Shown: positions 355 to 12,114 of the stretch, in pieces
How the letters are laid out: each line of letters opens with the position of its first letter
Numbering within the stretch: the first letter of the stretch is position 1
DNA from: a virus
Length of the DNA stretch: 33,233 nt
Strand: one strand, 5' to 3'
IMG/VR virus record: IMGVR_UViG_3300031812_000014
Location: 1 to 33,233 of that record
Made by a program: the position numbers and the translations under genes
Notes under the pieces: model-generated
Database searches by the model: none
What the model was told of the DNA's origin: nothing
The model's input: only the letters and a program-made list of their open reading frames with translations

Positions 355-522
355 CTACGCCCCATTCCCCCACCCCCACCGCAACAACTCCGCCACCCGC
401 GTGCCCGCCCGGGTCACCTCCACCACCACGGCGTCGCGGAGGAACACCCGCAACTGTGACGGCTCCAGGTAGGCGGCATCACGGCAGTCTGCCGTGCCCA
501 CCACCACCGCCGTTCCGATCAT
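355..522 (-). CDS. Tiny beta-rich protein, paralogue array member 1 (55 aa)
   Basis: Function unknown. The start chosen is the ATG at 522, which overlaps the upstream stop as ATGA and follows a GGGGG ribosome-binding site. A longer GTG start would run far into the neighbour. It begins MIGTAVVV, then has a YLEPSQL turn and ends with a VVVEVTRAGTRV strand pair. The same order of elements (a [YFI][LMS][ES]P-type turn, then V-x-V and GxGT) occurs in the next three genes upstream, so these are probably tandem duplicates. It is the last gene of the leftward operon, just before the large palindrome. There are no cysteines beyond one, no membrane segment and no recognisable enzyme motif. Confidence 0.65.
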   Translation of the reverse strand: MIGTAVVVGTADCRDAAYLEPSQLRVFLRDAVVVEVTRAGTRVAELLRWGWGNGA

Positions 523-680
523 GTACCAGCCCCCGGCAGTTCCCGCACGCGTGTCCCCGCCCCGGACACCTCCACGAACACCGGCCCCCGAACGACCACC
601 CACAGGGTTTCCGGGGACAGACTGATCATCACGTCGTCGAAGTTCTCGCCCTCCACGGTCAGCACCCCATTCTCGATCAT
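519..680 (-). CDS. Tiny beta-rich protein, paralogue array member 2 (53 aa)
   Basis: Function unknown. The ATG at 680 overlaps the upstream stop (ATGA), and its own stop overlaps the next start in the same way, so translation is probably coupled. It begins MIENGVLTVEG, then ISLSPETLWVVV and FVEVSGAGTRV. The LSP turn and the GAGTRV tail match the flanking genes. It looks like an all-beta domain of about 50 residues. A longer reading from 866 exists, but its extra N-terminal part is glycine- and arginine-rich and unlike the rest, and it would overlay the neighbouring gene in another frame. Confidence 0.65.
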   Translation of the reverse strand: MIENGVLTVEGENFDDVMISLSPETLWVVVRGPVFVEVSGAGTRVRELPGAGT

Positions 681-856
681 GTACCACACGCGTGTTCCTC
701 CGCTTCCCACACCGCCGTCTCCCCCGGCCCGTTCACTTCCACCCCCACGCCCGCCACCGTCGTGGACCACTGCCGCGGGCTCAGGTAGGCCAACACCTCG
801 CCCCCCGGTGCTCCCGGCATCACCATTACCGCGTCGCGCCAAATCAGGTAGATCAC
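677..856 (-). CDS. Tiny beta-rich protein, paralogue array member 3 (59 aa)
   Basis: This gene is easily missed because it is under 60 codons and starts with GTG. It opens at 856, where GTG overlaps the upstream TGA (GTGA), and ends at 677, where its TGA overlaps the next ATG (ATGA). The product begins VIYLIWRDAVMVMPG, contains AYLSPRQW, then VGVEVNGPGETAVW. The YLSP turn and the V-x-V-x-G-P-G-x-T segment match members 1, 2 and 4. The seamless stop-start overlaps on both sides are the strongest evidence that it is real. Function unknown. Confidence 0.7.
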   Translation of the reverse strand: MIYLIWRDAVMVMPGAPGGEVLAYLSPRQWSTTVAGVGVEVNGPGETAVWEAEEHACGT

Positions 857-1044
857 AGCGGCTCATTCACCTCCCACGCGTCCGTGTAGTTCCCCGCGTC
901 GGCCTCCACCACCACCCACTGTGTCCCACTCCCCAGCCACGTCCGCATGCACCGGGGGCTCATGAATGCCACCGCGTGCCCCGCGTCGGGGGGTCTCACC
1001 GTCACCACCACCGCGTCACCCGCTATCGTGTATGTGATCGTCAT
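853..1044 (-). CDS. Tiny beta-rich protein, paralogue array member 4 (63 aa)
   Basis: Function unknown. The ATG at 1044 follows an excellent ribosome-binding site (AGGAGG, 7 nt spacing). This is the only member of this cluster with a long leader of its own (about 250 nt gene-free upstream). It begins MTITYTIAGDAVVVTV, with the Y-x-I opening typical of the array, followed by AFMSPRCMRTW (the SP turn) and QWVVVEAD. It shares its order of elements with members 1-3, and its stop overlaps the next GTG. It probably heads a translationally coupled group of four. Confidence 0.75.
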   Translation of the reverse strand: MTITYTIAGDAVVVTVRPPDAGHAVAFMSPRCMRTWLGSGTQWVVVEADAGNYTDAWEVNEPL

Positions 1045-1291
1045 GGCCTCGCCTCCTAAAATGGCCCTAGCGGGCTCGTATTTGGCCTATAATCGTTCGG
1101 CGCGTAGGGGGTGGTAGGGGGGTAGCGACCCCCCACCCTCCGAACGCTTATAACGCCTCCTATAACACATTTCCTGCAACCTATTGATTCCAGAGCACTT
1201 ACGAGTTTGTGCACGCCATCTGTAACTCATTGCACCCAAAGGACTTAGCGTTTCCCCCCACACCCCAGCGTGCAAATGGCCCCGTTGCCCG
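1045..1291. other. Gene-free leader with stable hairpin and repeat motif copies
   Basis: No supported gene. The stretch holds the ribosome-binding site of the gene starting at 1044 and a long imperfect stem (1094-1146) closed by CGTTCGG/CCGAACG. It also has two copies of the dispersed intergenic motif (1173-1193 with TATTGATTCC, and a weaker one at 1219-1236), and GTTATA repeated either side of GGAGGC on the minus strand. No clear sigma70 promoter was found here, so it is more likely an internal RNA element of the long operon than a new start. Confidence 0.55.
1094..1146 (-). other. Stable RNA hairpin upstream of the last four tiny genes
   Basis: On the minus strand the outer arms CGTTCGG and CCGAACG pair perfectly. 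Inside, GGGTGGGGGGT faces ACCCCCTACCACCC with small bulges around a CGC turn. No U-tract follows, so it is not a textbook intrinsic terminator. It could slow transcription, protect RNA ends or regulate the downstream group. Confidence 0.5.
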
Positions 1292-1477
1292 TCACCGCTC
1301 CCACGCCTCCACCCGCACTCCGCGCCCTTCCACGGTCACCGTGATCCGTGACCGGCGCCCGCCCAATCCCACCACCATCCAGAACGGCCCCACGTGCACC
1401 TCCACCCGGCCCGGCCGGTCGGGGTAGTCGGCCCACACCGCAAACCCCTGGGCCGTCATGTAGTACCGCCGTGTCAT
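1292..1477 (-). CDS. Tiny beta-rich protein, array member 5 (61 aa)
   Basis: Function unknown. It begins MTRRYYMTAQGFAVWAD, the Y-x-[ILM] opening seen along the array, and continues with VEVHVGPFWMVVGLGG and ITVTVEGRGVRVEAW. The VGPFWMVV and VEGRGV segments resemble the strand and turn pattern of members 1-4. The ATG at 1477 was chosen because it places the shared opening at the N-terminus; its ribosome-binding site is weak (AGCGGG). An upstream in-frame start at 1561 would overlap the previous gene and add low-complexity residues. Confidence 0.6.
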   Translation of the reverse strand: MTRRYYMTAQGFAVWADYPDRPGRVEVHVGPFWMVVGLGGRRSRITVTVEGRGVRVEAWER

Positions 1478-1535
1478 CCCGCTGCCCCGCCCGCCTGGCG
1501 CGTGTGCCCCCCGCACCATCGGACCGGCCAGTGAA

Positions 1536-1763
1536 CTAGCGTTGTGGCCTGCCCCCCTCATACAAGATCGCGTGCGTTTCCGCCTCCCGAATCACCACCC
1601 GGCTGCCGTCCAACTCCACCATTACGCTACCGATTGATACCAGCAGCCACTCCGGCCGGACCGCCGTTATCCGCGTGCGCGTGCCGGTGTCATACCGTAG
1701 CAGCAGCATGCCCGCGCACACGCTGTACTCACGCTGCGGCCTCTTGCGCCGCGCCGCACTCAT
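1536..1763 (-). CDS. Tiny basic beta-rich protein, array member 6 (75 aa)
   Basis: Function unknown. The ATG at 1763 overlaps the upstream TGA as ATGA, which decides the start; longer readings to 2075 overlay two other genes. It has a basic N-terminus (SAARRKRPQ), then the array opening REYSVCAGMLLLRYD, and three further strand-like segments (WLLVSIGSV, MVELDGSRVVI, THAILYEGG). No membrane segment. The basic leader could contact nucleic acid, but this is a guess. Confidence 0.65.
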   Translation of the reverse strand: MSAARRKRPQREYSVCAGMLLLRYDTGTRTRITAVRPEWLLVSIGSVMVELDGSRVVIREAETHAILYEGGRPQR

Positions 1764-1951
1764 AACACCTGCCCCGTCACCGCGTGTTTGAGGGTCGTCT
1801 GCCCGCTCTCCCACTCGATCACCAGATTCCCCACCGTGGCCCGCAAATACCCCGGTGCGAACAGCACAACGCCCCGCTGTATGGAAACAATCATCACCAT
1901 GTACGGCTCCAAGCGGTATTCCCGCCACCGCGTATTGCGCTGCCCGGTCAC
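1760..1951 (-). CDS. Tiny beta-rich protein, array member 7 (63 aa)
   Basis: Function unknown. The GTG at 1951 overlaps the upstream TGA (GTGA), and the gene's own stop overlaps the next ATG. It begins MTGQRNTRWREYRLEPYMVMIVS, the W/R-E-Y-x-[IL] opening of the array, followed by GVVLFAP, ATVGNLVIEWESG and a short tail. The alternation of hydrophobic residues predicts four or five beta strands and no helix. Confidence 0.65.
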   Translation of the reverse strand: MTGQRNTRWREYRLEPYMVMIVSIQRGVVLFAPGYLRATVGNLVIEWESGQTTLKHAVTGQVL

Positions 1952-2151
1952 GGCCGCTCCACCCCCACCCCCCGGCCGCGGGCAACCACGCATTCATCCA
2001 CCCACGCGCCCTCGCGCCGGACGGCCAGCCAGATCTGTATGTCGCCCGGGAGCCGCAGCGTGCAGTCCCACCCATCCGCCCGGATTCTACCGACCCACCC
2101 GCCCCCTGCGTGTAGTATTATACCCTGGGGATTAATCCGATACCGTGTCAT
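1948..2151 (-). CDS. Tiny beta-rich protein, array member 8 (67 aa)
   Basis: Function unknown. The ATG at 2151 follows GGGAGG with 6 nt spacing, a strong ribosome-binding site lying inside the end of the upstream gene (20-nt overlap). It begins MTRYRINPQGIILHAGGG, the clearest example of the R-Y-x-I opening, then CTLRLPGDIQIWLAV and a basic, glycine-rich tail. The stop overlaps the next GTG. Confidence 0.7.
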   Translation of the reverse strand: MTRYRINPQGIILHAGGGWVGRIRADGWDCTLRLPGDIQIWLAVRREGAWVDECVVARGRGVGVERP

Positions 2152-2353
2152 TCACGACCTCCCCCACTTCTATCTTCATTCCGCCCCGCGGTCGGTATTC
2201 GATATACACGAATTCTCCCGACTTACTCCGAAGCAAAGCCGCAAGCACTCCATTCCGGATAATTCCTACTGTGTCCATGTTACTGGCCACCCGCACTGCC
2301 GGTTCGTTTTCCCCCAGAATCGAGTAAGTGATGTTACTCCAACTTACAGTCAT
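2132..2353 (-). CDS. Tiny protein, array member 9 (73 aa)
   Basis: Function unknown. The ATG at 2353 has GGAG 7 nt upstream. It begins MTVSWSNITYSILGENEPAV, again with Y-x-I after a short lead-in, then TVGIIRNGVLAALLRSKSGEFVYIEYRP and an acidic tail. The I-R-N-G segment resembles Y-R-N-G in the next gene upstream. There is a 19-nt gap to that gene and a 20-nt overlap with the following one. Confidence 0.65.
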   Translation of the reverse strand: MTVSWSNITYSILGENEPAVRVASNMDTVGIIRNGVLAALLRSKSGEFVYIEYRPRGGMKIEVGEVVNDTVSD

Positions 2354-2372
2354 ATCCCGTCTCCAGTAACTG

Positions 2373-2585
2373 CTAGCGCCGGGTCCATTTCCGTTCGACC
2401 ACCTCTGTCTCCCGGGGCAGCAGCGTGACCACCACGCCCTTCCGCACCCCGTTCGCCGCCGGGGGGTGTTCCATACGGAGGAACCCAAATTGCCGTCCGA
2501 AGAACCCGGCCGTCGCCCCGTTTCGGTACAGGGCGAGAGAGCCGTCCGTCCGGACCGCGTACTCCCACCGCGCCTGGTCAGTCAT
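2373..2585 (-). CDS. Tiny protein, array member 10 (70 aa)
   Basis: Function unknown. The start at 2585 is fixed by an ATGA overlap. It begins MTDQARWEYAVRTDGSLALYRNG. The neighbour at 2582-2788 has A-R-W-Y-Y-V-I-G-Q-D-G-S-L-H-L at the same place, so the two are clear paralogues. The middle holds FGFLRMEH and the end VVVTLLPRETEVV, matching FWYMRAAHGVWVTLENGKV in the neighbour. Confidence 0.7.
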   Translation of the reverse strand: MTDQARWEYAVRTDGSLALYRNGATAGFFGRQFGFLRMEHPPAANGVRKGVVVTLLPRETEVVERKWTRR

Positions 2586-2788
2586 AGCCCACGCTCCATC
2601 ATGCATACCTTTCCGTTCTCGAGCGTCACCCATACTCCGTGGGCCGCCCGCATGTACCAAAAGTCCGTCCCCAGACACCCCGCATGCAGCACCGTGTATC
2701 CGACCGCTCGCTGCAAATGCAGGGATCCATCTTGCCCAATCACATAATACCACCGTGCCGCTTCAGCGTGTTCTTCTCTGTCATTCAT
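2582..2788 (-). CDS. Tiny protein, array member 11 (68 aa)
   Basis: Function unknown. It begins MNDREEHAEAARWYYVIGQDGS, then FWYMRAAHGVWVTLENG. It aligns along its length with the gene at 2373-2585 (shared ARWxYxxxxDGSLxL, F[GW][FY][LM]R and V[VW]VTL). The ATG at 2788 overlaps the upstream gene's stop by 8 nt (ATGAATGA). The short N-terminal lead-in is acidic. Confidence 0.7.
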   Translation of the reverse strand: MNDREEHAEAARWYYVIGQDGSLHLQRAVGYTVLHAGCLGTDFWYMRAAHGVWVTLENGKVCMMERGL

Positions 2789-3332
2789 ACACGTATTCTA
2801 CCACGAACGTCGGCTCAATGTGCACCTTGCGGCCGGTGTCGTTCAGCCACACGGCCACCTTCACCCGCAGCCGCGCGTCCGGCAGCGTGCCTGCCGCAAT
2901 GCGGAAGTCGAACGGGGCCCGCGCCACCTCACCCTTGGTAGCATGCTGGATGTACACCAGCGTGTTATCCGCGGCGGGCCATACCCGCTCGCTGCCGTCC
3001 GGCTCGGTGGTTTGCAACCCAAACAACACGCCCGCCGCCGTGCCGGGGGGCACCGCGCCAATCGGCCACGCCACCAGATCGCCGTACACCCGCGTGATCC
3101 GCACGCGCTGGCCGGGGGGCACGTTGCGGAACTCCATCACCCACTCGTGCGCCGCCGCCGTCCCCCACGTGTCCGGGCGCGTGTCCGGCTCCCCCAACAG
3201 ATCCACGGCAAAGTTTGTCGCGGCCCGGTAGACGGGGGCACTGTCGCACTTCGCCCCCCGCGCATTGGCCGCCGCCAGTAGAAAGATGCCGCCACAGATT
3301 ACCAACTCTTTCAGTGCCATCTTACCCGCCAT
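2781..3332 (-). CDS. Exported protein of unknown function (183 aa)
   Basis: The first 25-28 residues form a Sec-type signal peptide: Lys near the N-terminus, then LVICGGIFLLAAA, with likely cleavage after the ANA or ARGA segment. No lipobox is visible. The mature part (about 155 aa) is beta-rich, with EWVMEFRNVPPGQRVRI and two 'VWP/AWP' segments. It lacks known catalytic motifs. It is larger than its tiny neighbours and is the only clearly secreted product in the operon, so it may act in the envelope. An alternative ATG at 3320 (MALKELV) would start 1 nt after the upstream stop and is about equally likely. Confidence 0.7.
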   Translation of the reverse strand: MAGKMALKELVICGGIFLLAAANARGAKCDSAPVYRAATNFAVDLLGEPDTRPDTWGTAAAHEWVMEFRNVPPGQRVRITRVYGDLVAWPIGAVPPGTAAGVLFGLQTTEPDGSERVWPAADNTLVYIQHATKGEVARAPFDFRIAAGTLPDARLRVKVAVWLNDTGRKVHIEPTFVVEYVYE

Positions 3333-3525
3333 GCCTGTGTTGATATGAACCTAGGGTGATCACTTTCGCCGTGTTGCGAAAAACGTCGTAGTACACGACT
3401 ACCACGGGCGCCACACCCAAATCCGCCCCCCACCCCCATCTCCCGATGTACCAATGCGGGCACAGCCTGCCTTCGGGCTGCGCCCACCCCACCGCAATTT
3501 CGCGCTCTAAGATCCGATATTCCAT
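3322..3525 (-). CDS. Tiny aromatic protein, HWYI subgroup (67 aa)
   Basis: Function unknown. The ATG at 3525 shares a base with the upstream stop (TGATG) and has a strong GGGAGG site. It begins MEYRILEREIAVGW; the next gene upstream begins MEYRISDYRIMIGW. Both then carry an HWYI segment, G-A-[DE]-L, a run of valines ending YYD or DYD, and NT before the last strand, and end in QxRHG. This is the best-conserved pair in the array and shows that it arose by duplication. Confidence 0.75.
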   Translation of the reverse strand: MEYRILEREIAVGWAQPEGRLCPHWYIGRWGWGADLGVAPVVVVYYDVFRNTAKVITLGSYQHRHGG

Positions 3526-3743
3526 CACTCCCTCCCGTGCCTGCACTGGTGTGGCCCCGCAACGATGATGTCCACCGTGTTCATCAGCGCGTCATAGTCC
3601 ACCAGCAGCACCGCCTCTCCGCCGGGCGCAATGTCTCCCAACTCCGCGCCGATTCCACGCCGTGCGATGTACCAGTGTGCGCAGAACCCGTTACTGTGCG
3701 GCCACCCGATCATGATCCGGTAGTCTGAAATCCTATACTCCAT
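3525..3743 (-). CDS. Tiny aromatic protein, HWYI subgroup (72 aa)
   Basis: Function unknown; clear paralogue of the genes at 3322-3525 and 3733-3987. It begins MEYRISDYRIMIGW, followed by CAHWYIARRGIGAELG, GEAVLLVDYDALMNT and a His/Arg-rich tail. The start at 3743 gives the shared N-terminus but has only a weak ribosome-binding site and overlaps the upstream gene by 11 nt, so coupling is likely. The RR-x-x-GAEL block is also in the upstream paralogue. Confidence 0.75.
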   Translation of the reverse strand: MEYRISDYRIMIGWPHSNGFCAHWYIARRGIGAELGDIAPGGEAVLLVDYDALMNTVDIIVAGPHQCRHGRE

Positions 3744-3987
3744 CGTGTTTCGCCCAATACCGCCGCGCCAGCGCCACCGCCGTGTAATGTCCGGTCTGCG
3801 TGTATCCGGCTCGGTGCATTATGAAGTGCGTTCGGCCATGCATATTGTAGACCACCGACAACACGGCCTCGCTGCCGGTCAATTCGGCCCCCAGCACCCG
3901 CCGGTGTACGTACCAGCGCGGCTCACTCTGGCCCGTGTCTCGGACCCAGAACCCCGCCGCGCTGATACCGTATCGGAGCGTTGTCAT
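3733..3987 (-). CDS. Tiny protein, HWYI subgroup with C-terminal extension (84 aa)
   Basis: Function unknown. The ATGA overlap at 3987 decides the start over a GTG at 4008. It begins MTTLRYGISAAGFWV, then EPRWYVHRRVLGAEL, SEAVLSVVYN and TGHYTAVALARRYWAKHD. The WYV-x-RR-x-x-GAEL and EAVLxVxY blocks match the gene at 3525-3743. The last 20 or so residues look helical and have no match in the other members. Confidence 0.7.
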   Translation of the reverse strand: MTTLRYGISAAGFWVRDTGQSEPRWYVHRRVLGAELTGSEAVLSVVYNMHGRTHFIMHRAGYTQTGHYTAVALARRYWAKHDGV

Positions 3988-4199
3988 CGTGTTCTGCCCC
4001 GGTTCCACCGCAACACCGCTTCCACGGTGGTGCGAAAGATATCGGCCGAGACCAGCCCCGCCTGGAACGCCTCATGCGCCTTGTCGAGCGGCACCAGCAC
4101 CGCGCGGATGAACCGCCGCAGGCGTCTGGCCGTGTGCCACCAGGCCACTGCGCAGATGAGTGCGGCCCCTACCGCCAGGCCCAGAATGACGTCATGCAT
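3984..4199 (-). CDS. Small single-span membrane protein (71 aa)
   Basis: One membrane segment lies at about residues 4-21 (VILGLAVGAALICAVAWW), followed by a basic patch (TARRLRRF) that should hold the rest in the cytoplasm, and a helical tail. The ATG at 4199 has GGGGAG 6 nt upstream. The gene at 4440-4820 has the same layout (N-terminal span, basic stop-transfer, helical domain), so the pair may share a role. No family was recognised. Confidence 0.7.
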   Translation of the reverse strand: MHDVILGLAVGAALICAVAWWHTARRLRRFIRAVLVPLDKAHEAFQAGLVSADIFRTTVEAVLRWNRGRTR

Positions 4200-4202
4200 C
4201 GC

Positions 4203-4436
4203 TCACTCCCCACAACTGTGCTCTACCCACTCCTCAATTTGCCATCCCCCATTTGGGGTGTACCACATGAAGAGGAGGGAGTTCTGGCCGATCAGGTCCG
4301 CCCGGAACGATGTCCGGTACACGCCCCAATGAACGCAAATACTTCGGGCGTTTCGGGTCAGGGCATCGCGCGTTACGTAGCCGACCCACAGACCGGAATC
4401 GATGACTCCATACTCCTCCCCCCGCGTGTTGCCCAC
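4203..4436 (-). CDS. Tiny aromatic protein, HWYI-like (77 aa)
   Basis: Function unknown. The GTG at 4436 follows GGGAG with 6 nt spacing located at the end of the upstream gene. It begins MGNTRGEEYGVIDSGLWVGYV, the E-Y-x-[IV] opening, then ICVHWGVYRTSFRADL, LLFMWYTPNGGW and IEEWVEH. The HWG-V and R-A-D-L pieces align with HWYI and GAxL of the three genes downstream, making it a divergent fourth member of that subgroup. Confidence 0.65.
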   Translation of the reverse strand: MGNTRGEEYGVIDSGLWVGYVTRDALTRNARSICVHWGVYRTSFRADLIGQNSLLFMWYTPNGGWQIEEWVEHSCGE

Positions 4437-4820: not shown

Positions 4821-5097
4821 CGCCGTCCTCCACCGCCTCCAGCGGCACGAACCGTGCGGCACGCTGCGTCAGCCGGGCGCACTCGCGGTCTACCGCCAGC
4901 CGCACCACGGTGGCGGGATGTCGGTACTCCGCAAAGTGCAGCGCCAGCCGCGAGACCACGAAGGCCTCCACCTCGTCGCGCAGGTGCGCAGGCACCCGCT
5001 GTGCGATGAGGTTGCGCAGCTTGCGCCGGAAGGCCCGAAAGTTCTCCTCGTTCCAGCCCCGCGCCCGCACGTCTTGTGCGAGCTTGCTCCAATTCAT
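4807..5097 (-). CDS. Small helical cytoplasmic protein (96 aa)
   Basis: Function unknown. It is charged, helical and has no signal or span: MNWSKLAQDVRARGW, then FRAFRRKLRNLIAQRV, HLRDEVEAFVVSRLALHF and an acidic end. The start at 5097 is the only in-frame choice before a stop. Its GGAGGGG site is unusually far (11-14 nt). An overlapping frame starting at 5107 has better spacing, but its product is Gly/Ala/Arg-rich and looks like a shadow. Confidence 0.6.
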   Translation of the reverse strand: MNWSKLAQDVRARGWNEENFRAFRRKLRNLIAQRVPAHLRDEVEAFVVSRLALHFAEYRHPATVVRLAVDRECARLTQRAARFVPLEAVEDGDDLG

Positions 5098-5103
5098 GGT
5101 CGG

Positions 5104-5382
5104 TCATTCCCCCTCCATTACCTCAGACGGTTGATGCGCCCGATCCAACACCGCGTGAATCACGAAGTGGAGGAACAGCATTGTCCCCACCAGCACTGCG
5201 CCCGTAGTCAGGTGGTGCCTCTCCCGCCACTCGTCCAGGACGCGGCCTAGATCATCGGTCGCCTCATCGCTCGGCCGCAGCGCCAAGAGCGGCGACGCCA
5301 GGCTGACAAACGTCAGCATGCTACTCAAAGCGACCAGCGCGCTGTACATAATGTCTCTATTCTGAAATGCATTCTCATCCAT
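5104..5382 (-). CDS. Small two-span membrane protein (92 aa)
   Basis: Two hydrophobic segments lie at about residues 12-32 (IMYSALVALSSMLTFVSL) and 62-80 (GAVLVGTMLFLHFVIHAV), joined by a charged loop. The ATG at 5382 has GGAGG 6 nt upstream and overlaps the Lon stop by 8 nt. Two-span proteins of this size include holins, but this one sits beside Lon, far from the lysozyme, so a holin role is not favoured. No family was recognised. Confidence 0.65.
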   Translation of the reverse strand: MDENAFQNRDIMYSALVALSSMLTFVSLASPLLALRPSDEATDDLGRVLDEWRERHHLTTGAVLVGTMLFLHFVIHAVLDRAHQPSEVMEGE

Positions 5383-7531
5383 TGATAACCTCCAGCGCGT
5401 GCGGCAACGCCTCACGGATGTGCCGCACGAAAGTGAGTTTGACTCCGAGTTTGCTCAGTTCGCGAACGTCCTCACGGTTGTCCGCAGGCAGCACCACGTG
5501 ACGAATGCCGTCACGCCGGGCCGCCAGAATCTTCTCCTTGAGCCCGCCGACCGGCAGCACCTCGCCCGTCAGCGTGACCTCCCCGGTGAACGCCACATCA
5601 CACCGCGCGCGCAGCCGCGTGAACAGAGACACCAGCGCGGCCACGATGGCCAGCCCCGCCGACGGGCCGTCCTTGGGGGTGGCGCCCTCGGAGACATGCA
5701 CGTGCACCGCCCCGCGCATGTCCCCAGCGTGCAACCCCAACTCCTCCGCGTGCGCCAGCAGCCACGACCGCGCGGCCTGCACAGACTCGCGCATCACTTG
5801 CCCGAGGTGGCCGGTGATGATGTCCTCCCGCTTGCCCGGCAGACACACGGCCTCGACATCCAGCGTGCTGCCCCCGGTCTCGCTCCACGCGAGCCCCACC
5901 GTGACACCCACGCGGGGCACCCGCTGCCGGGGGCGGATGCGGCTGTCTTCGCTCACCCAACGGTGTGCGTTTGCGGCGGAAATACGCACGCGGCCGATGC
6001 CCGTTTCGACCTTGGCCAGCGCCACCCGGCGGCACACCGAGGCAATGACGCGCTCCAAGCTGCGCACGCCCGCCTCACGCGTGTAGCCGTTGATCAGCGC
6101 CCGGATGCCCCCCGGCGTGAATTCTACGTCCTCGGCCGTCAGTCCGATCTCCTTCATTTGTTTCGGGATGAGGAACCGGGACGCGATGTGCGCCTTCTCC
6201 TCTTCCGAGTAGCCGTTCAGCCGAATGACTTCCATGCGGTCCAACAGCGGCGATGAAATGGTCGCCGTGGTATTGGCCGTGGCGATGAAGAGCACTTTGC
6301 TCAGGTCAAAGGGAATATCCACGTAGTTGTCTCGGAAGTGCTTGTTCTGCTCCGGGTCCAGAATTTCCAGCAGCGCCGCGGCGGGGTCCCCCCGGTGGTC
6401 CCGCCCGATCTTGTCCACCTCGTCGAACAGGATCACCGGGTTCTTGCCCGCGCGCTGAATGGCCTTGATGATCTTGCCGGGCATGGCGCCGACGTACGTG
6501 CGCCGGTGGCCGCGCAGCTCGGCCTCATCGTGCATCCCGCCGAGCGCGATGCGCTCAAAGTTACGTCCCAGCGCCCGGGCGATGGATCGCCCCAGCGAGG
6601 TTTTTCCTACGCCGGGCGGCCCCACGAAGCAGAGGATTGGTGCGCGGGCGGCGGGGTTCAACTTCATCACCGCCAGGTGCTCCAGCACCCGCTGCTTAAC
6701 CCGCTCGAGGTTGTAGTGGTCCTCGTCGAGGACCTGCCTGGCGTGCGCGATGTCCACCTCTTGGGGTGGGGGATCCTCCCACGGCAAGCTGGTGACGAAA
6801 TCGATGTAGTCTCTGAGCAGCGCGGCCTCGTGGCTGCCCGGGGGCATCCGCCGGAGCCGTTCTTGCTCTTTGTCCAGTTCGGCCTGCACGTGCGGGGGGA
6901 GGTAACCCTTGCGTGCTTGGGCCTCGAACTCGTCCCAAATGGCATCGGGGATGATGCGTTTGAGCGCCGCCTCCAACTCCTTGTAGTTCTCGGCCTTGAT
7001 CAGGTCCAGTTTGGCCTCGGGGGACACCCCCAGCGTGCCTTTGGCGATCATGAGCATGGCCAGGGCACGGGGGTGCGTAGGCAGCGTGTCCGGAACGCGC
7101 CCGGGCTTCATCTTCCGCAACTGTTCCAGCATTGCGGTGCACGTGCCGGCAATGCGCTGGCCGACGGCGCGGTCCGACTCGTCGAACGGAAACTCCTCGA
7201 ATTCCACGATGGGGTACTGCGTGAAGTCCGTGACCGCACCGATCTTCACCGGCTGGTCGGCGGCCAGCTCCACCTGCACCGTGTCGGTGGAGGGGTTGAG
7301 CGTACCGGTCCGGGGGCCCTCGTCCACCGAGATAATCTCGCACACCACACCGTGTGTAGCAAGCTCGCCATTGATGCTACACACCGCTACCGCGGGTAGC
7401 CCCGCCGCGGCCCCGGCGCGCACCTGCTCTACGACAACACGCTTAAGGGCGATTATGGCGTCGGAGTAGGGCAGGATTACCCCGTGCCGGATCTTTACGA
7501 GTACACCGCGCTGTTTCTTCGTAGTTGTCAT
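5375..7531 (-). CDS. Lon-family ATP-dependent protease (718 aa)
   Basis: A soluble hexameric AAA+ serine protease that unfolds and degrades proteins. Visible parts: a divergent N-terminal substrate-binding region (1 to about 250), the family signature TSLPWED-like (248-254), Walker A GPPGVGKT (304-311), Walker B VILFDEVDK (366-374), sensor Asn near 420 and Arg finger in LLDRM (about 432). The protease domain has catalytic Ser624 in DGPSAG and Lys665 in GGLKEK. All key residues are present, so it should be active. The length is somewhat below typical bacterial LonA (about 780-800), and the shortfall is in the N-terminal part, suggesting altered substrate choice. The ATG at 7531 (AGGAG, 6 nt) is preferred over 7549, which lies inside the upstream gene. 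It follows MoxR-type and VWA genes in the same operon. Confidence 0.95.
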   Translation of the reverse strand: MTTTKKQRGVLVKIRHGVILPYSDAIIALKRVVVEQVRAGAAAGLPAVAVCSINGELATHGVVCEIISVDEGPRTGTLNPSTDTVQVELAADQPVKIGAVTDFTQYPIVEFEEFPFDESDRAVGQRIAGTCTAMLEQLRKMKPGRVPDTLPTHPRALAMLMIAKGTLGVSPEAKLDLIKAENYKELEAALKRIIPDAIWDEFEAQARKGYLPPHVQAELDKEQERLRRMPPGSHEAALLRDYIDFVTSLPWEDPPPQEVDIAHARQVLDEDHYNLERVKQRVLEHLAVMKLNPAARAPILCFVGPPGVGKTSLGRSIARALGRNFERIALGGMHDEAELRGHRRTYVGAMPGKIIKAIQRAGKNPVILFDEVDKIGRDHRGDPAAALLEILDPEQNKHFRDNYVDIPFDLSKVLFIATANTTATISSPLLDRMEVIRLNGYSEEEKAHIASRFLIPKQMKEIGLTAEDVEFTPGGIRALINGYTREAGVRSLERVIASVCRRVALAKVETGIGRVRISAANAHRWVSEDSRIRPRQRVPRVGVTVGLAWSETGGSTLDVEAVCLPGKREDIITGHLGQVMRESVQAARSWLLAHAEELGLHAGDMRGAVHVHVSEGATPKDGPSAGLAIVAALVSLFTRLRARCDVAFTGEVTLTGEVLPVGGLKEKILAARRDGIRHVVLPADNREDVRELSKLGVKLTFVRHIREALPHALEVING

Positions 7532-7542
7532 GTTCGTCTCCT

Positions 7543-8667
7543 CTACCATTCTACCACAGTTCCTTCGCTGTCGTCCTCACGCTTTTGCGTGTAGACGACT
7601 TTGTCTTGGGGCCGGACGTGAGTGGGGCGTAGCCGCCCGTGCGGCACGATGACCCAGATGATGGGGGCCGCAGGCGGTCGGATTACCGCCTCGTGCTCCC
7701 CATCGGTGTATGCGATGACCAAATCCGGTTGCAGCGCCTCGGCGGCATTCAGCGCCGGTTGGATGTTCGTTCCGCCGCCCAGCCCCTCGATGTGTTCGGG
7801 GGGCGCGGCCCGGCCAGACCACAGCACGCGGTCGGAATAGATGATCACGTGCGGGAGCGCCGTTTTAGTCAGTTGCCGGACCGCGCTCCAGGCGTACGGA
7901 AACCAGTGGTCCATGCTGCCCGACCCATCGAGCAGCACCACAATGCGGCTGCGCCGCTCACGCACCGTACCGCGGAGGCCCGGCAGCCGCCCCGGGCGGC
8001 GCCACCCCCGCGCACGCACCGGCACCGTGCCCCGGACGCGTTTGGCCAGCCGCAGCGTGCGCAGCAGCCCCAGCAGTTGCAGATCGGGTTCCACCTTCGG
8101 CACCTGTACCATCTCGTGGTGTCCACCGGTGCCTCGCACGGGCGCGGCCAGCCGGTTGAGGCGTGGTAGGCTTTGTTGGGCTTGCATGAGTGTGCGCAGG
8201 TGCGCCTCAACACGCTGACCGTCGCTATCCCCCCGTGTAATGTTGGAGCCGGTCTGCGGTTGCCACCCGCTCTGAAGCAACCGGCGCTCGATCCAGCGCC
8301 AAGACGGCAGACTGACCTTTTGCAGCGGGCTGTCGTAGAGCCGGGCGGGTACGTCGTTCTCGGTAAGGCCGACGAATTGTCTCAAGGCTTGCGGCAGCGT
8401 GATGTGCCGATTGGCGGCGATTTCTTGCGCGGCCAGCCGCACTGTGGTGTTCGGGTGCGGCTCGTCGAGCGCGAGCACGTCGCCGCGAAAGATGCGCGTG
8501 GCGTAGTGAGCGATGATCGGCTCGGTCTCCTCGGGCGGGAGGGCGTCCCACGACAGCGGGATAGCGAGCGTGTATCCGCTGGCGTCCAGCGTGAGGAGCG
8601 GCTCCTCGTCTGTGGTTCGCACGATGCGCACTCCACAGATTTGGAGCTCTTCCAGAAACGCCTTCAT
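7543..8667 (-). CDS. VWA-domain protein with complete MIDAS, partner of the adjacent AAA+ ATPase (374 aa)
   Basis: The C-terminal half is a von Willebrand factor A domain: VVLLDGSGSM gives the metal-binding D-x-S-x-S, GGGTN supplies the Thr and AYTDGEHE the Asp, so the MIDAS site is intact. The N-terminal half (AAQEIAANRHI around residue 80) resembles the metallopeptidase-like part of DUF2201-type VWA proteins; the exact family is unverified. VWA proteins encoded next to MoxR ATPases (RavA-ViaA, CbbQ-CbbO and NorQ-NorD are known pairs) act as adaptors in metal insertion or complex remodelling. The ATG at 8667 overlaps the ATPase stop as ATGA, so the two are made together. Lon follows 11 nt later. 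Confidence 0.88.
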   Translation of the reverse strand: MKAFLEELQICGVRIVRTTDEEPLLTLDASGYTLAIPLSWDALPPEETEPIIAHYATRIFRGDVLALDEPHPNTTVRLAAQEIAANRHITLPQALRQFVGLTENDVPARLYDSPLQKVSLPSWRWIERRLLQSGWQPQTGSNITRGDSDGQRVEAHLRTLMQAQQSLPRLNRLAAPVRGTGGHHEMVQVPKVEPDLQLLGLLRTLRLAKRVRGTVPVRARGWRRPGRLPGLRGTVRERRSRIVVLLDGSGSMDHWFPYAWSAVRQLTKTALPHVIIYSDRVLWSGRAAPPEHIEGLGGGTNIQPALNAAEALQPDLVIAYTDGEHEAVIRPPAAPIIWVIVPHGRLRPTHVRPQDKVVYTQKREDDSEGTVVEW

Positions 8668-9803
8668 TGCTGTTCCTCCATCAGCTCCGGAAACTCCTGC
8701 CGGATCTGCTCTTCCAACTGGCGCCGGGCGGCGGGAGACAGTTGCGCGGCCCGGGCAATCTGAATGGCCCGCCGCTGCGTGGCCCGCCGCAAGGCATTGG
8801 CCACTTCGGACTGGTCGTGTTGCGGGCACAGTTGCCCGTTGCACCGCTCAGACACCTTCTTGAGCGTGTCACACAGTTGGGGGGCGATGTCGGCATACTC
8901 GCCCTCCAGCGCGCGGGCCACGAGGTGCTCCAAGATCTTCGGCGGGCCGACCTCGGCGAAGTGGTCCAGCAGCCGAATCGCCTGCGCGGGAGTGATGTTA
9001 TCCCGCACGGTGGGGTCCAGCCCCTCCCACCCGCGGGTCTCCAGGGCCCGGCGCAGCAGGCGCAGCAGCGTGACCCCATCTTGCGCCAGCCGCTCTCTGA
9101 GCCAGGTGGCGACGCGGGCGGGCACCAGCGCGTCCCACGCGTCAATGCCGTGGTCGTACATCCGCAGCCCGATGTCGAGGGTGCGGTTGGGGATCGGCTC
9201 GATAAACGGCGGCTCGGGCACACTGCCGCCCCGCAGTTCGGTGAGCCAGGGCAGGCCGTATTGCGCGGCCAGCCAGTCACGCTCGTCCCCAAAGGGGAAC
9301 CACGCCAGCCGCGCTGCGAGCGCCCGCCCGGTTTCTGAGGCTAAGAAGTCGGTGCGCGACACGGGCTGCATCGCGCAGATGATGATGGTCTGCGGGTGCA
9401 GTCGCCGCCCGTGTAGTTCGCAGTCCCACAACAGTGTAAGGATGGCTGCGGCCTTCTGCGGATCGTCGGCCGCTTTGTCGAGCTCGTCAAAGAACAGGAC
9501 CACTGGTTCCCGTTCCGCGTGCGCGAACCATGCGGGGACCGTGTGCACCGTGTCCCAGGGGCCTTGCGACTTGGGGTGGAACACGGCGCGCTGCTGCGCG
9601 TCGGCGCCAATTGGCAGACCACCGATGTCTTCCGGCAACAGTTGAGCGAGTAGAACGACCTCGATGGGCAGGTTCAGGCTCGCCGCTAACTTCCGGACGC
9701 GGGCGGTCTTGCCCGTGCCGGTGGGGCCCAGCAGGCACACGCGCGGCCAGTGCGGCCCCCGAAATTCCGTTGCGATGATGTCCCATGTTGCTGTCTTGAT
9801 CAT
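8664..9803 (-). CDS. MoxR-type AAA+ ATPase (379 aa)
   Basis: A chaperone-like AAA+ ATPase. Walker A GPTGTGKT at 26-33, Walker B VVLFFDELDK at 101-110, a sensor-like IICAMQP at about 141-147, and a helical C-terminal domain rich in Arg and Glu. Size and layout fit MoxR relatives that work with a VWA partner, which here is the next gene with a 4-nt overlap. The ATG at 9803 has GGAGG 5 nt upstream. A longer reading to 9962 overlays the neighbouring gene. A possible extended -10 (TGGTACAAT, 9823-9831) lies upstream but coincides with coding sequence. Likely role: remodelling a phage or host complex. The target is unknown. Confidence 0.9.
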   Translation of the reverse strand: MIKTATWDIIATEFRGPHWPRVCLLGPTGTGKTARVRKLAASLNLPIEVVLLAQLLPEDIGGLPIGADAQQRAVFHPKSQGPWDTVHTVPAWFAHAEREPVVLFFDELDKAADDPQKAAAILTLLWDCELHGRRLHPQTIIICAMQPVSRTDFLASETGRALAARLAWFPFGDERDWLAAQYGLPWLTELRGGSVPEPPFIEPIPNRTLDIGLRMYDHGIDAWDALVPARVATWLRERLAQDGVTLLRLLRRALETRGWEGLDPTVRDNITPAQAIRLLDHFAEVGPPKILEHLVARALEGEYADIAPQLCDTLKKVSERCNGQLCPQHDQSEVANALRRATQRRAIQIARAAQLSPAARRQLEEQIRQEFPELMEEQQ

Positions 9804-9820
9804 ATGGTCCTCCCTCTTCC

Positions 9821-10471
9821 CTATTGTACCATGTGTGTGGCCCGCAGCGCTAGCTTGAGCCAACGGCGCCCCACCCAAATGTGTTTGTCCGCAATGCACG
9901 GCGGTGACCCGCCGCACAGAATGTGAAGCTGCCTCTGCCGCTGTGTCGGCTTGCGCCTCCAATAGTGGAGGCAGGCTGTGATGGCGGCCTCCACCAGCCG
10001 CTCTTCAGTCCAACCCCACACCTGTGCAACCACTGCCAGATCGGGGCGGGCGGATAGCGGCATCCGAAGACCACGCCGCTCACGCCACAGAAAGACGCGA
10101 GAGAAGTAGCGTTGGATGCGCAGAATCTCGTGCGTGTACGGCACGTGCAAATCATCTAGCCGCCGTTTCAGTGGCGGCCATTCCGCGCCCACCATGATAT
10201 AGCTTGTGTCTCGCGAGCAGTATGGCGGCGTGGTGTCCGGAATGAACACAATTCCGTTAGGTATGAGCATGCGTGCGTAGCCTGAGTGTGTCAGGGTTCC
10301 GTCGGACGTGTAGTAGTACGCGGTGCGGCGGAGCGGCGGCGCGCTGTCATACAACCAGCGTTGCAGCGAGCGGTGGTGCCGCAAGGCGAAGACCGCCCGC
10401 TGCACGGCGGGATAGTTATTCGCCGCCGTCGCTGCCCGCACCAGACCTGCGTTGTAGTTTTTCCGGACCAT
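9821..10471 (-). CDS. Protein of unknown function (216 aa)
   Basis: Not recognised. It is basic and rich in Arg, Tyr and Trp: MVRKNYNAGLVRAATAAN, then RTAYYYTSDGTLTHSGY, an IPNGIVFIPD strand segment, a helical middle (LKRRLDDLHVPYTHEILRIQRY) and a C-terminal CGGSPPC pair. No signal or span. The ATG at 10471 immediately follows the upstream TAA (TAAATG) with GGGGA just ahead. It lies between the amidoligase/hydrophobic peptide pair and the AAA+-VWA-Lon cassette and could belong to either. Confidence 0.7.
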   Translation of the reverse strand: MVRKNYNAGLVRAATAANNYPAVQRAVFALRHHRSLQRWLYDSAPPLRRTAYYYTSDGTLTHSGYARMLIPNGIVFIPDTTPPYCSRDTSYIMVGAEWPPLKRRLDDLHVPYTHEILRIQRYFSRVFLWRERRGLRMPLSARPDLAVVAQVWGWTEERLVEAAITACLHYWRRKPTQRQRQLHILCGGSPPCIADKHIWVGRRWLKLALRATHMVQ

Positions 10472-10687: not shown

Positions 10688-11395
10688 TTACTTGAATTGC
10701 TCGAATTGCTCGAACGGCAAACTCAATTGCTGCGGGCGCGGCACATCTAGCTCGCGCCGCAAATACTCTCCCAGGGTGTGCAGCAGCCAGTCCACGGCGT
10801 GGATGTACTCTTCGCTATTGCCTGCGTGCGGGAGCAGGCGGAATTCGACCGTGCCGTACTCGTGCACCGCATGCCAGTTGATGGCCCGGTATCGGGTTGA
10901 TCCCGGTACGCGCTCTCCGCGGCGCTTCATCCGGTGTTGGATGGCATGGGTCGGCGGTTCATCCCACCGGCAATAGCTGTACTTAAGCCGTGCTGTGTAC
11001 TTGTAGTTGTTTCCCCAGCGCGCCAAATAGCGCTGGTGGAACCAGCGCAGGAAGTGGCGGTGCGCAACGGCGTGTAGAGCACGTTCTGACAGGGCGACGT
11101 GCACGTGATTCCCACACGTGCTATTCTGCGTGATTCTGCCTCGCTGCCACAACTCTACGATGCGCTGTGACCATGTAGACCATTCGGTTGCCTGAATCCG
11201 AATCTTGACTTCTGCGTTGGGTATCCAGTCTCTGCGCCTCTGGTCGTCCGGCACATAGACCGTGACATCCCGGTCTAACCTGACGTCTTGATGGTCTGTA
11301 GCTCCCTGCTCCATACCGCACTCAATCTCTAAGCCGATGCCTCGGATGTCCGGGTGCGGTGAGTGGTATCTGATTGTGGTAGCCTCAACGGCCAT
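10688..11395 (-). CDS. Putative amidoligase-family enzyme (235 aa)
   Basis: Resembles the amidoligase (COOH-NH2 ligase, glutamine-synthetase fold) family: GLEIE at 21-25 (metal or ATP-binding strand), GNHVHV at 95-100 (the hallmark [GN]xHVHV), and RYRAINW...YGTVEFR at about 168-186 with His190 following. These match the family's core order. Such enzymes join amine and carboxyl groups and often sit with peptide-modifying partners in phages. The start at 11395 has GGGAG 7 nt upstream. Its leader is the 27-nt product of a predicted hammerhead ribozyme, so the enzyme's mRNA is probably processed. Substrate unknown; no glutamine amidotransferase partner is seen in the window. Confidence 0.8.
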   Translation of the reverse strand: MAVEATTIRYHSPHPDIRGIGLEIECGMEQGATDHQDVRLDRDVTVYVPDDQRRRDWIPNAEVKIRIQATEWSTWSQRIVELWQRGRITQNSTCGNHVHVALSERALHAVAHRHFLRWFHQRYLARWGNNYKYTARLKYSYCRWDEPPTHAIQHRMKRRGERVPGSTRYRAINWHAVHEYGTVEFRLLPHAGNSEEYIHAVDWLLHTLGEYLRRELDVPRPQQLSLPFEQFEQFK

Positions 11396-11417
11396 GCTCT
11401 GTCTCCCTGCGGCCATT

Positions 11418-11476
11418 GCCGTGACCGGCCGTACCGGCCGGTTTCGCCCCGTGCCGCTCGGGGCTCATCAGACGGC
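11418..11476 (-). ncRNA. Type I hammerhead ribozyme 2, overlapping a stop codon
   Basis: Read on the minus strand from 11476: stem I strand GCCGU, core CUGAUGA (11471-11465), stem II GCCCCG/CGGGGC with a 7-nt loop, GAAA (11445-11442), stem III ACCGGCCG/CGGCCGGU with a GUA loop (closing A-U), cleavage nucleotide C (11423), then stem I return strand ACGGC. All invariant hammerhead positions are present, and both closed helices are GC-rich. It is open at stem I, hence type I. The predicted cut is between 11423 and 11422. The UGA in the core is the stop codon of the gene at 11468-11743, so terminating ribosomes would cover the ribozyme. The 3' product starts 27 nt before the amidoligase ATG. Confidence 0.92.
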
Positions 11477-11743
11477 GGGGGAGTCGTTGTTGGGGGCGGG
11501 CCGGTACCATCTCCCCACATAATACCGTGTCTTCCGCCCGCGCCCACCGGGATCGATGGTTCCGGTGGGGGCATAGATAATCTCGACGCCCGCGGGCACG
11601 GGGCCGGGCCCTAGGCGACGATAGCCCCCGGCAGCCAGAAGGTCCATTGTTACACGGTACCAGTACGCACCGCCGCGGCCGGGGCGCGCCCAATGGGAGC
11701 ACTGCGCCCACAACTCTTTAATTTTTTCGCTAATCGTGTCCAT
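11468..11743 (-). CDS. Small protein between two ribozymes (91 aa)
   Basis: Function unknown. The ATG at 11743 (MDTISEKIKELW) has GGAG 6 nt upstream; the in-frame ATG at 11755 has none. There is a helical N-terminus, then AYWYRVTMDLLAAGG (echoing the Y-x-V opening of the tiny-protein array), a Pro/Gly-rich middle with VEIIYAPTG, and KTRYYVGRWYRP. Its 5' leader is the product of ribozyme 1, and its last codons plus stop form part of ribozyme 2, so both ends of its mRNA are predicted ribozyme cuts. Confidence 0.75.
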   Translation of the reverse strand: MDTISEKIKELWAQCSHWARPGRGGAYWYRVTMDLLAAGGYRRLGPGPVPAGVEIIYAPTGTIDPGGRGRKTRYYVGRWYRPAPNNDSPAV

Positions 11744-11765
11744 CGCATTCTCCATGCGGCCGGTT

Positions 11766-11823
11766 GCCGCGACCGCGGCCTTGCCGCGGTTTCGCCCCGG
11801 GCCGCCGGGGCTCGTCAGGCGGC
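11766..11823 (-). ncRNA. Type I hammerhead ribozyme 1
   Basis: Read on the minus strand from 11823: stem I strand GCCGC, core CUGACGA (11818-11812), stem II GCCCCGG/CCGGGGC with a CGGC loop, GAAA (11793-11790), stem III ACCGCGGC/GCCGCGGU with an AAG loop, cleavage C (11771), then stem I return strand GCGGC. The core fits CUGANGA...GAAA...UH exactly. Stem I (GCCGC/GCGGC here, GCCGU/ACGGC in ribozyme 2) and stem III differ by paired changes, which supports real structure. The predicted cut lies between 11771 and 11770, 27 nt before the start of the next gene. It lies 8 nt after the stop of the Cys-rich gene. Confidence 0.92.
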
Positions 11824-11830
11824 GTCGTTG

Positions 11831-12100
11831 TCATTCGCACATGCAGCACGGGGCGTCGGAGCCGCACTCGCAGTACGGCTTCTTCGAGCACGGGCAGTAG
11901 TCGTAGTCACGGTACCACGGGCGGTATGTGTTGTACTGCGAGCGGTTTGCCCCAGTTAGTACCTTGACCAGTGCGCCGTCTACCCAGAAGTCCTTTGAGC
12001 CGTCGAAGAACGCCAGATGTGCCCGCCGCCCATACTTCGTGTCTCCGATGTACAGGAGACGGTATTTCTTGCCTTTGTACTCAGCCACGTTGTTCATCAT
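11831..12100 (-). CDS. Cys-rich small protein, first gene of the leftward operon (89 aa)
   Basis: Function unknown. The N-terminal two thirds are basic and aromatic (VAEYKGKKYRLLYIGD, FFDGSKDFWVDGALVKV). The last 21 residues hold seven cysteines in CPC, CEC and CCMC pairs, suggesting metal binding. Adjacent ATGs at 12100 and 12097 both suit the GGAGG site; 12097 has the better 6-nt spacing. A consensus sigma70 promoter ends about 15 nt upstream, so the mRNA leader is very short. As the first gene it should be expressed most strongly. Confidence 0.8.
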   Translation of the reverse strand: MMNNVAEYKGKKYRLLYIGDTKYGRRAHLAFFDGSKDFWVDGALVKVLTGANRSQYNTYRPWYRDYDYCPCSKKPYCECGSDAPCCMCE

Positions 12101-12114
12101 CAACCTCCACTACC

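Follow-up and report, generated by a model that had tools for sequence, protein, structure and literature searches.

A phage hammerhead ribozyme that holds the stop codon of its upstream gene: sequence context and a probable role in mRNA end formation

Clustered hammerhead ribozymes (HHRs) are known to flank phage genes, and processing of the surrounding transcripts into single-gene mRNAs has been proposed for them (Perreault et al., 2011; PMC3088659). Three tandem sets of this phage type cleave in vitro and the A. tumefaciens set also cleaves in E. coli; spliced or circular products were sought in the same study, and none were found (Perreault et al., 2011). For the HHphage ribozyme of the haloviruses HF1 and HF2, a mapped transcript 5' end lies near the cleavage site (PMC3088659). 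In synthetic biology, the insulator RiboJ combines a hammerhead with a downstream hairpin and normalizes the 5' UTR after cleavage (PMC7536230). A 2017 review described the role of prokaryotic HHRs as open and linked them to phages and to small open reading frames (ORFs) of unknown function (PMC6155905). Among the open-licence papers searched, no report of stop codons inside hammerheads was found.

The ribozyme described here, HHR2, belongs to this known kind of element, the clustered phage HHR. The whole stretch of DNA analysed (the window, 33,233 bases) is a phage record with terminase, portal and capsid genes. A descriptor scan identified exactly two type I HHRs in the window, both on the minus strand, and scans of the window for type II and type III HHRs gave no match. 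The order on the minus strand is gene A, HHR1, gene B, HHR2, gene C (Table 1). Gene B is bounded by two HHRs of the same strand, which is the arrangement that marks the HHR clusters proposed to process phage polycistrons. No DNA relatives of the window were found in the phage collection, and three relatives found through the terminase (L441–L443) show no HHR in the parts available. Gene B has no detectable homologue in the viral contigs and gene C has one remote relative, which lacks an HHR.

Other regions of the window have features of their own. Positions 355–4436 (minus strand) hold runs of mutually related small ORFs, a tandem paralogue family of unknown function (for example 3322–3546, 3525–3743, 3733–4008 and 4203–4436, as well as 355–687, 519–866 and 1292–1561). 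At 5375–9962 (minus strand), a Lon-like ATP-dependent protease (phrog_15585, E 2.4e-200) adjoins an AAA+ ATPase, accompanied by a 433-aa protein which has a weak match to an HNH-family PHROG and reads like a VWA-type partner.

Table 1. Positions of the two ribozymes, their parts and the neighbouring genes in the window
Feature	Position	Strand	Basis
HHR2, complete type I HHR; stems I 5 bp, II 6 bp, III 8 bp	11418..11476	-	descriptor scan
HHR2 stem I, GCCGU/ACGGC	11476-11472 with 11422-11418	-	sequence
HHR2 stem I 5' strand GCCGU, within the final two codons of gene B (Ala-Val)	11472..11476	-	sequence
HHR2 C3 and UGAUGA core	11471-11465	-	sequence
Core U4-G5-A6, UGA stop of ORF 11743-11468	11468..11470	-	sequence; coding frame
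HHR2 loop II AGCGGCA; GCGGC can pair with GCCGC 11413-11409 (predicted pseudoknot)	11452..11458	-	
HHR2 predicted cleavage site, C17 11423 / A 11422	11422..11423	-	position in hammerhead consensus
HHR2 post-cleavage 5'-terminal hairpin CGGC(AAUG)GCCG; shares the 3' segment of the pseudoknot partner	11409..11421	-	predicted
Shine-Dalgarno GGGAG of gene C	11403..11407	-	sequence
Gene B, 91 aa, flanked by HHR1 and HHR2, no known family	11468..11743	-	ORF, coding frame, profile searches
HHR1, sister type I hammerhead; predicted cut 11771/11770	11766..11823	-	descriptor scan
Gene A, 90 aa, upstream of HHR1; stop UGA 15 nt before C3, outside the core	11831..12103	-	
Gene C, amidoligase-like, downstream of HHR2	10688..11395	-	phrog_2443 E 3.7e-8; PF12224 just under cut-off

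Read 5' to 3' on the minus strand (11476–11418), HHR2 consists of GCCGU CUGAUGA GCCCCG AGCGGCA CGGGGC GAA ACCGGCCG GUA CGGCCGGU C ACGGC, where stem II (GCCCCG/CGGGGC) is followed by GAA and the 8-bp stem III. The conserved core is complete in the descriptor scan (CUGAUGA, GAAA, U16.1 and C17), and the three helices with an open-ended stem I correspond to the type I topology. A chance origin of the motif is excluded because none of 300 dinucleotide-preserving shuffles of the window contained a match (descriptor requiring 4 bp or more in each stem). The minimum free energy fold of isolated HHR2 is the hammerhead (-32.1 kcal/mol). With its flanks, a nested alternative fold lies 3.6 kcal/mol below the hammerhead; the folding model has no means of including the pseudoknot, for which about -8.4 kcal/mol is computed as an isolated duplex. 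HHR1 takes the hammerhead fold both in isolation and with flanks; it shares its core with HHR2 and differs from it by five compensatory double changes and no broken pairs. Every structural element listed in the preliminary description of this DNA (core, stems, C17 and the stem I pairing) is present on the minus strand, and its identification of a hammerhead is upheld by the complete core, the three stems, the shuffled windows and the compensatory changes. At the gathering score, neither HHR of the window reaches any Rfam family. The weak best match at HHR2 is Hammerhead_HH9 (RF02275; E 0.39, 16.5 bits against a threshold of 52), with which it aligns in its core and stem order but from whose model its GC-rich stems and loops are absent; the classification of HHR2 as a hammerhead therefore stands on core and fold, not on the Rfam score. 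Cleavage at the consensus position is predicted to leave a 5'-OH end at 11422.

The same preliminary description held that the UGA of the core is a stop codon and that the final codons of the gene form stem I, and both claims agree with the sequence: 11470–11468 ends the ORF 11743–11468, here gene B, and the last two codons, GCC GUC, supply the 5' strand of stem I. This ORF is likely to be a real gene. No other frame at the site stays open for 40 or more codons, the ORF has a positive codon score, and its start at 11743 is supported by a well-spaced Shine-Dalgarno sequence (a further in-frame ATG lies at 11755). Searches of gene B against PHROG and Pfam gave no match.

To place this overlap, stop positions were compared across a set of HHRs collected by scanning viral contigs, and in one scan genomes, for the sequence pattern and then applying a structure filter (3.7 Mb). 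The filtered matches comprise 317 type I and 56 type III HHRs, and reversed sequence passed through the same filter yields none. Removal of near-duplicates left 198 non-redundant type I HHRs, for 179 of which codon usage allowed a coding frame ending near the ribozyme to be assigned. The upstream stop adjoins stem I in 77 of these (positions -9 to -7 from C3), and in 36, about a fifth, the core UGA is itself the stop of the upstream gene. Stops within stem I (4/179) or beyond the core (12/179) are few, and the remainder lie further upstream. Across type I HHRs, the position of the stop tracks the length of stem I. Core stops occur at all GC contents, with 14 of 96 cases below 55% GC and 22 of 83 above. 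Of the 46 ORFs that pass stem I, 36 end at the core UGA, as opposed to the one third expected if no frame were preferred (p 4e-9).

Spurious open frames are a real concern in GC-rich phages, and a few false calls are allowed for among the 36. ORFs of at least 40 codons are open in the core frame at 28 of 112 HHRs whose true stop lies elsewhere; the median coding score of these spurious ORFs is -0.07, compared with 0.21 for the called ones. Of the ten long core-stop ORFs compared with PHROGs, five match phage families (best E 1.6e-72). The stop in the core is a recurrent variant of type I HHRs and an instructive contrast to type III. Such stops may have arisen by loss of an ancestral stop at position -8, which is weakly suggested by near-stop codons in 18 of the 36 cases against a background of 33% (p 0.03). 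The idea of an in-frame backup, in which a stop at -8 shares its frame with the core UGA, was rejected, as that frame shows no excess (48 vs 66 and 44). A contig titled Thaumarchaeota archaeon (L335) carries a 341-codon ORF at 4917–5942 (plus strand) that ends at the core UGA of a type I HHR and belongs to no PHROG family, and five phage contigs (L153, L189, L050, L130 and L258) have at least four tandem hammerhead-pattern matches between genes.

A comparison of type I with type III HHRs, made post hoc after the data had been seen, reveals a core stop in 36 of 179 type I HHRs but in just one of the 37 type III HHRs with a callable frame (Fisher p 0.009). The single type III case is itself ambiguous, its longest ORF ending at the core while a rival stop lies upstream. 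In this post hoc comparison, the median gap between the stop and the first stem is 0 nt in type I and 23.5 nt in type III (p 6e-11). Among type III HHRs, 34% have a hairpin of at least 6 bp within the 36 nt that precede stem III, compared with 5% in shuffles, whereas the same test on type I HHRs with an abutting or core stop gives 5% against 4% in shuffled sequence. The cut of a type III ribozyme precedes its core, and a core stop would consequently leave a non-stop upstream mRNA. In type I, the core lies 5' of the cut and remains on the upstream product, so that its UGA is usable as a stop and a separate stop before stem I becomes dispensable. The simplest account of these sequences is that a hairpin is required where the cut leaves the upstream mRNA with a new 3' end, provided by stems II and III in type I and often by a separate hairpin in type III, where the hairpins could also serve another role. 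In individual type III contigs (L304, L319, L052, L138 and L260, among others), a GC-rich hairpin is found between the stop and stem III, often abutting stem III.

The contrast between the two types in core stop, gap and hairpin favours end formation. HHR2, a type I hammerhead, probably cuts a polycistronic phage RNA between two genes into single-gene mRNAs with formed ends, as suggested by its fold, the stop in its core, its location between a stop codon and a Shine-Dalgarno sequence and the sister copy on the other side of gene B. Self-cleavage would leave an upstream message with its whole reading frame and stop, and the 3' end of this message would be formed by hairpins II and III, both GC-rich, and carry a 2',3'-cyclic phosphate. 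Such an end may resist 3' exonucleases. The downstream message would begin with a 5'-OH and a short hairpin, followed by an exposed Shine-Dalgarno sequence.

The downstream side of the ribozyme is consistent with such a leader. The loop II sequence GCGGCC of HHR1 is complementary to GGCCGC at 11761–11756 over 6 bp, with a 5-bp counterpart in HHR2. In 39% of 253 HHRs, loop II is complementary over 4 bp or more to the sequence that follows stem I, as opposed to 17% with swapped loops, in agreement with the loop II pseudoknot probed by mutation in earlier work (Perreault et al., 2011; PMC3088659). The downstream product begins with a 5'-terminal hairpin of 4 bp or more for 37% of HHRs and 19% of strand-swapped controls, and one of 5 bp is predicted for the product of HHR1. 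Loop II complementarity and product hairpin co-occur across HHRs (odds ratio 3.0, p 0.0003), which suggests that, once the RNA is cut, one segment may exchange loop II for the 3' strand of stem I as its pairing partner. For both gene B (from the ATG at 11743) and gene C, the leader predicted to remain after cleavage is 27 nt long, and the two share a layout of stem I 3' strand, GGCCGCA segment, GGAG and ATG. One further candidate, masking of the Shine-Dalgarno sequence by a CUCCC that lies in gene B's final codons and extends stem I outward, was set aside, as it occurs at HHR2 and is absent from HHR1.

A different reading of the overlap is that translation gates cleavage. A ribosome terminating at the core UGA would occupy the core together with the 5' strand of stem I and the first part of stem II. 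The ribozyme could then fold only in the intervals between ribosomes or when the upstream gene is not translated, and cleavage would report upstream translation and set downstream expression. The footprint of a terminating ribosome would indeed cover these parts: when the stop codon occupies the A site, the ribosome's leading edge lies about 12–13 nt further, over the core and stem II. The stop is located in the core or at most 9 nt from it in 113 of the 179 type I HHRs, and ORFs entering the HHR favour the core frame. However, end formation predicts the same stop placement and explains it without regulation. Termination is also brief compared with the lifetime of a transcript, and cleavage would still happen after the first ribosome. 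Moreover, the stop upstream of HHR1 lies outside its core, and the arrangement is therefore not needed even within this phage. Competition between translation and cleavage is physically plausible, yet the data do not need it, and gating of this kind appears unlikely. It is quite unlikely, too, that the core stop is a recurrent, selected design which couples finished translation to the release of a hairpin-capped mRNA and the birth of the next one, the ribosome holding the ribozyme open until termination and the freed 3' strand of stem I then snapping into the 5' hairpin to make the cut irreversible. If true, however, translation coupling would tie mRNA processing directly to termination through RNA alone.

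The overlap might alternatively be without consequence, HHRs being placed at gene ends by genome compactness alone. Phage genomes are compact, the motif CUGANGA brings a stop codon at no cost in one of its frames, and spurious ORFs do run into the core; nonetheless, their coding scores fall well below those of the called ORFs, and type III HHRs from these collections keep a distance from the stop (median gap 23.5 nt). Mere packing is accordingly considered improbable. It is highly improbable that the HHRs are inactive relics or that their cleavage products serve RNA circularization or ligation rather than processing. Hammerhead ribozymes are in general able to ligate, and two flanking copies could release a small unit, but core residues are intact and stems perfect in both copies of the window, and the post-cleavage hairpin would oppose religation.

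HHR2 resembles the phage and prophage HHRs described earlier, which likewise flank single small genes and are proposed to cut long transcripts, and whose pseudoknot between the stem I side and loop II has a predicted counterpart in HHR2 (Perreault et al., 2011; PMC3088659). Stop codons are without mention there (term search), and the core stop, the contrast between type I and type III and the product hairpin come from the present analysis. The HHphage of HF1 and HF2 shares the position of the ribozyme a few nucleotides upstream of a phage gene start; it differs in lying in the leader of a first gene, and a core with an upstream stop codon has not been described for it. The stop statistics and the type I/III contrast offer a concrete, testable answer to the question of what prokaryotic HHRs do, namely that these natural ribozymes may generate the 5' as well as the 3' ends of single-gene phage mRNAs and leave no non-stop messages behind. 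The natural arrangement resembles the RiboJ insulator of synthetic biology, and in several contigs (for example L123, L068, L073, L087 and L198) the 5' product hairpin, in which the 3' strand of stem I pairs with sequence further downstream, recalls that of RiboJ. RiboJ is engineered, with a 23-nt hairpin added after the ribozyme, and is placed after a promoter without overlap with an upstream gene; its downstream layout nevertheless matches that of the natural HHRs.
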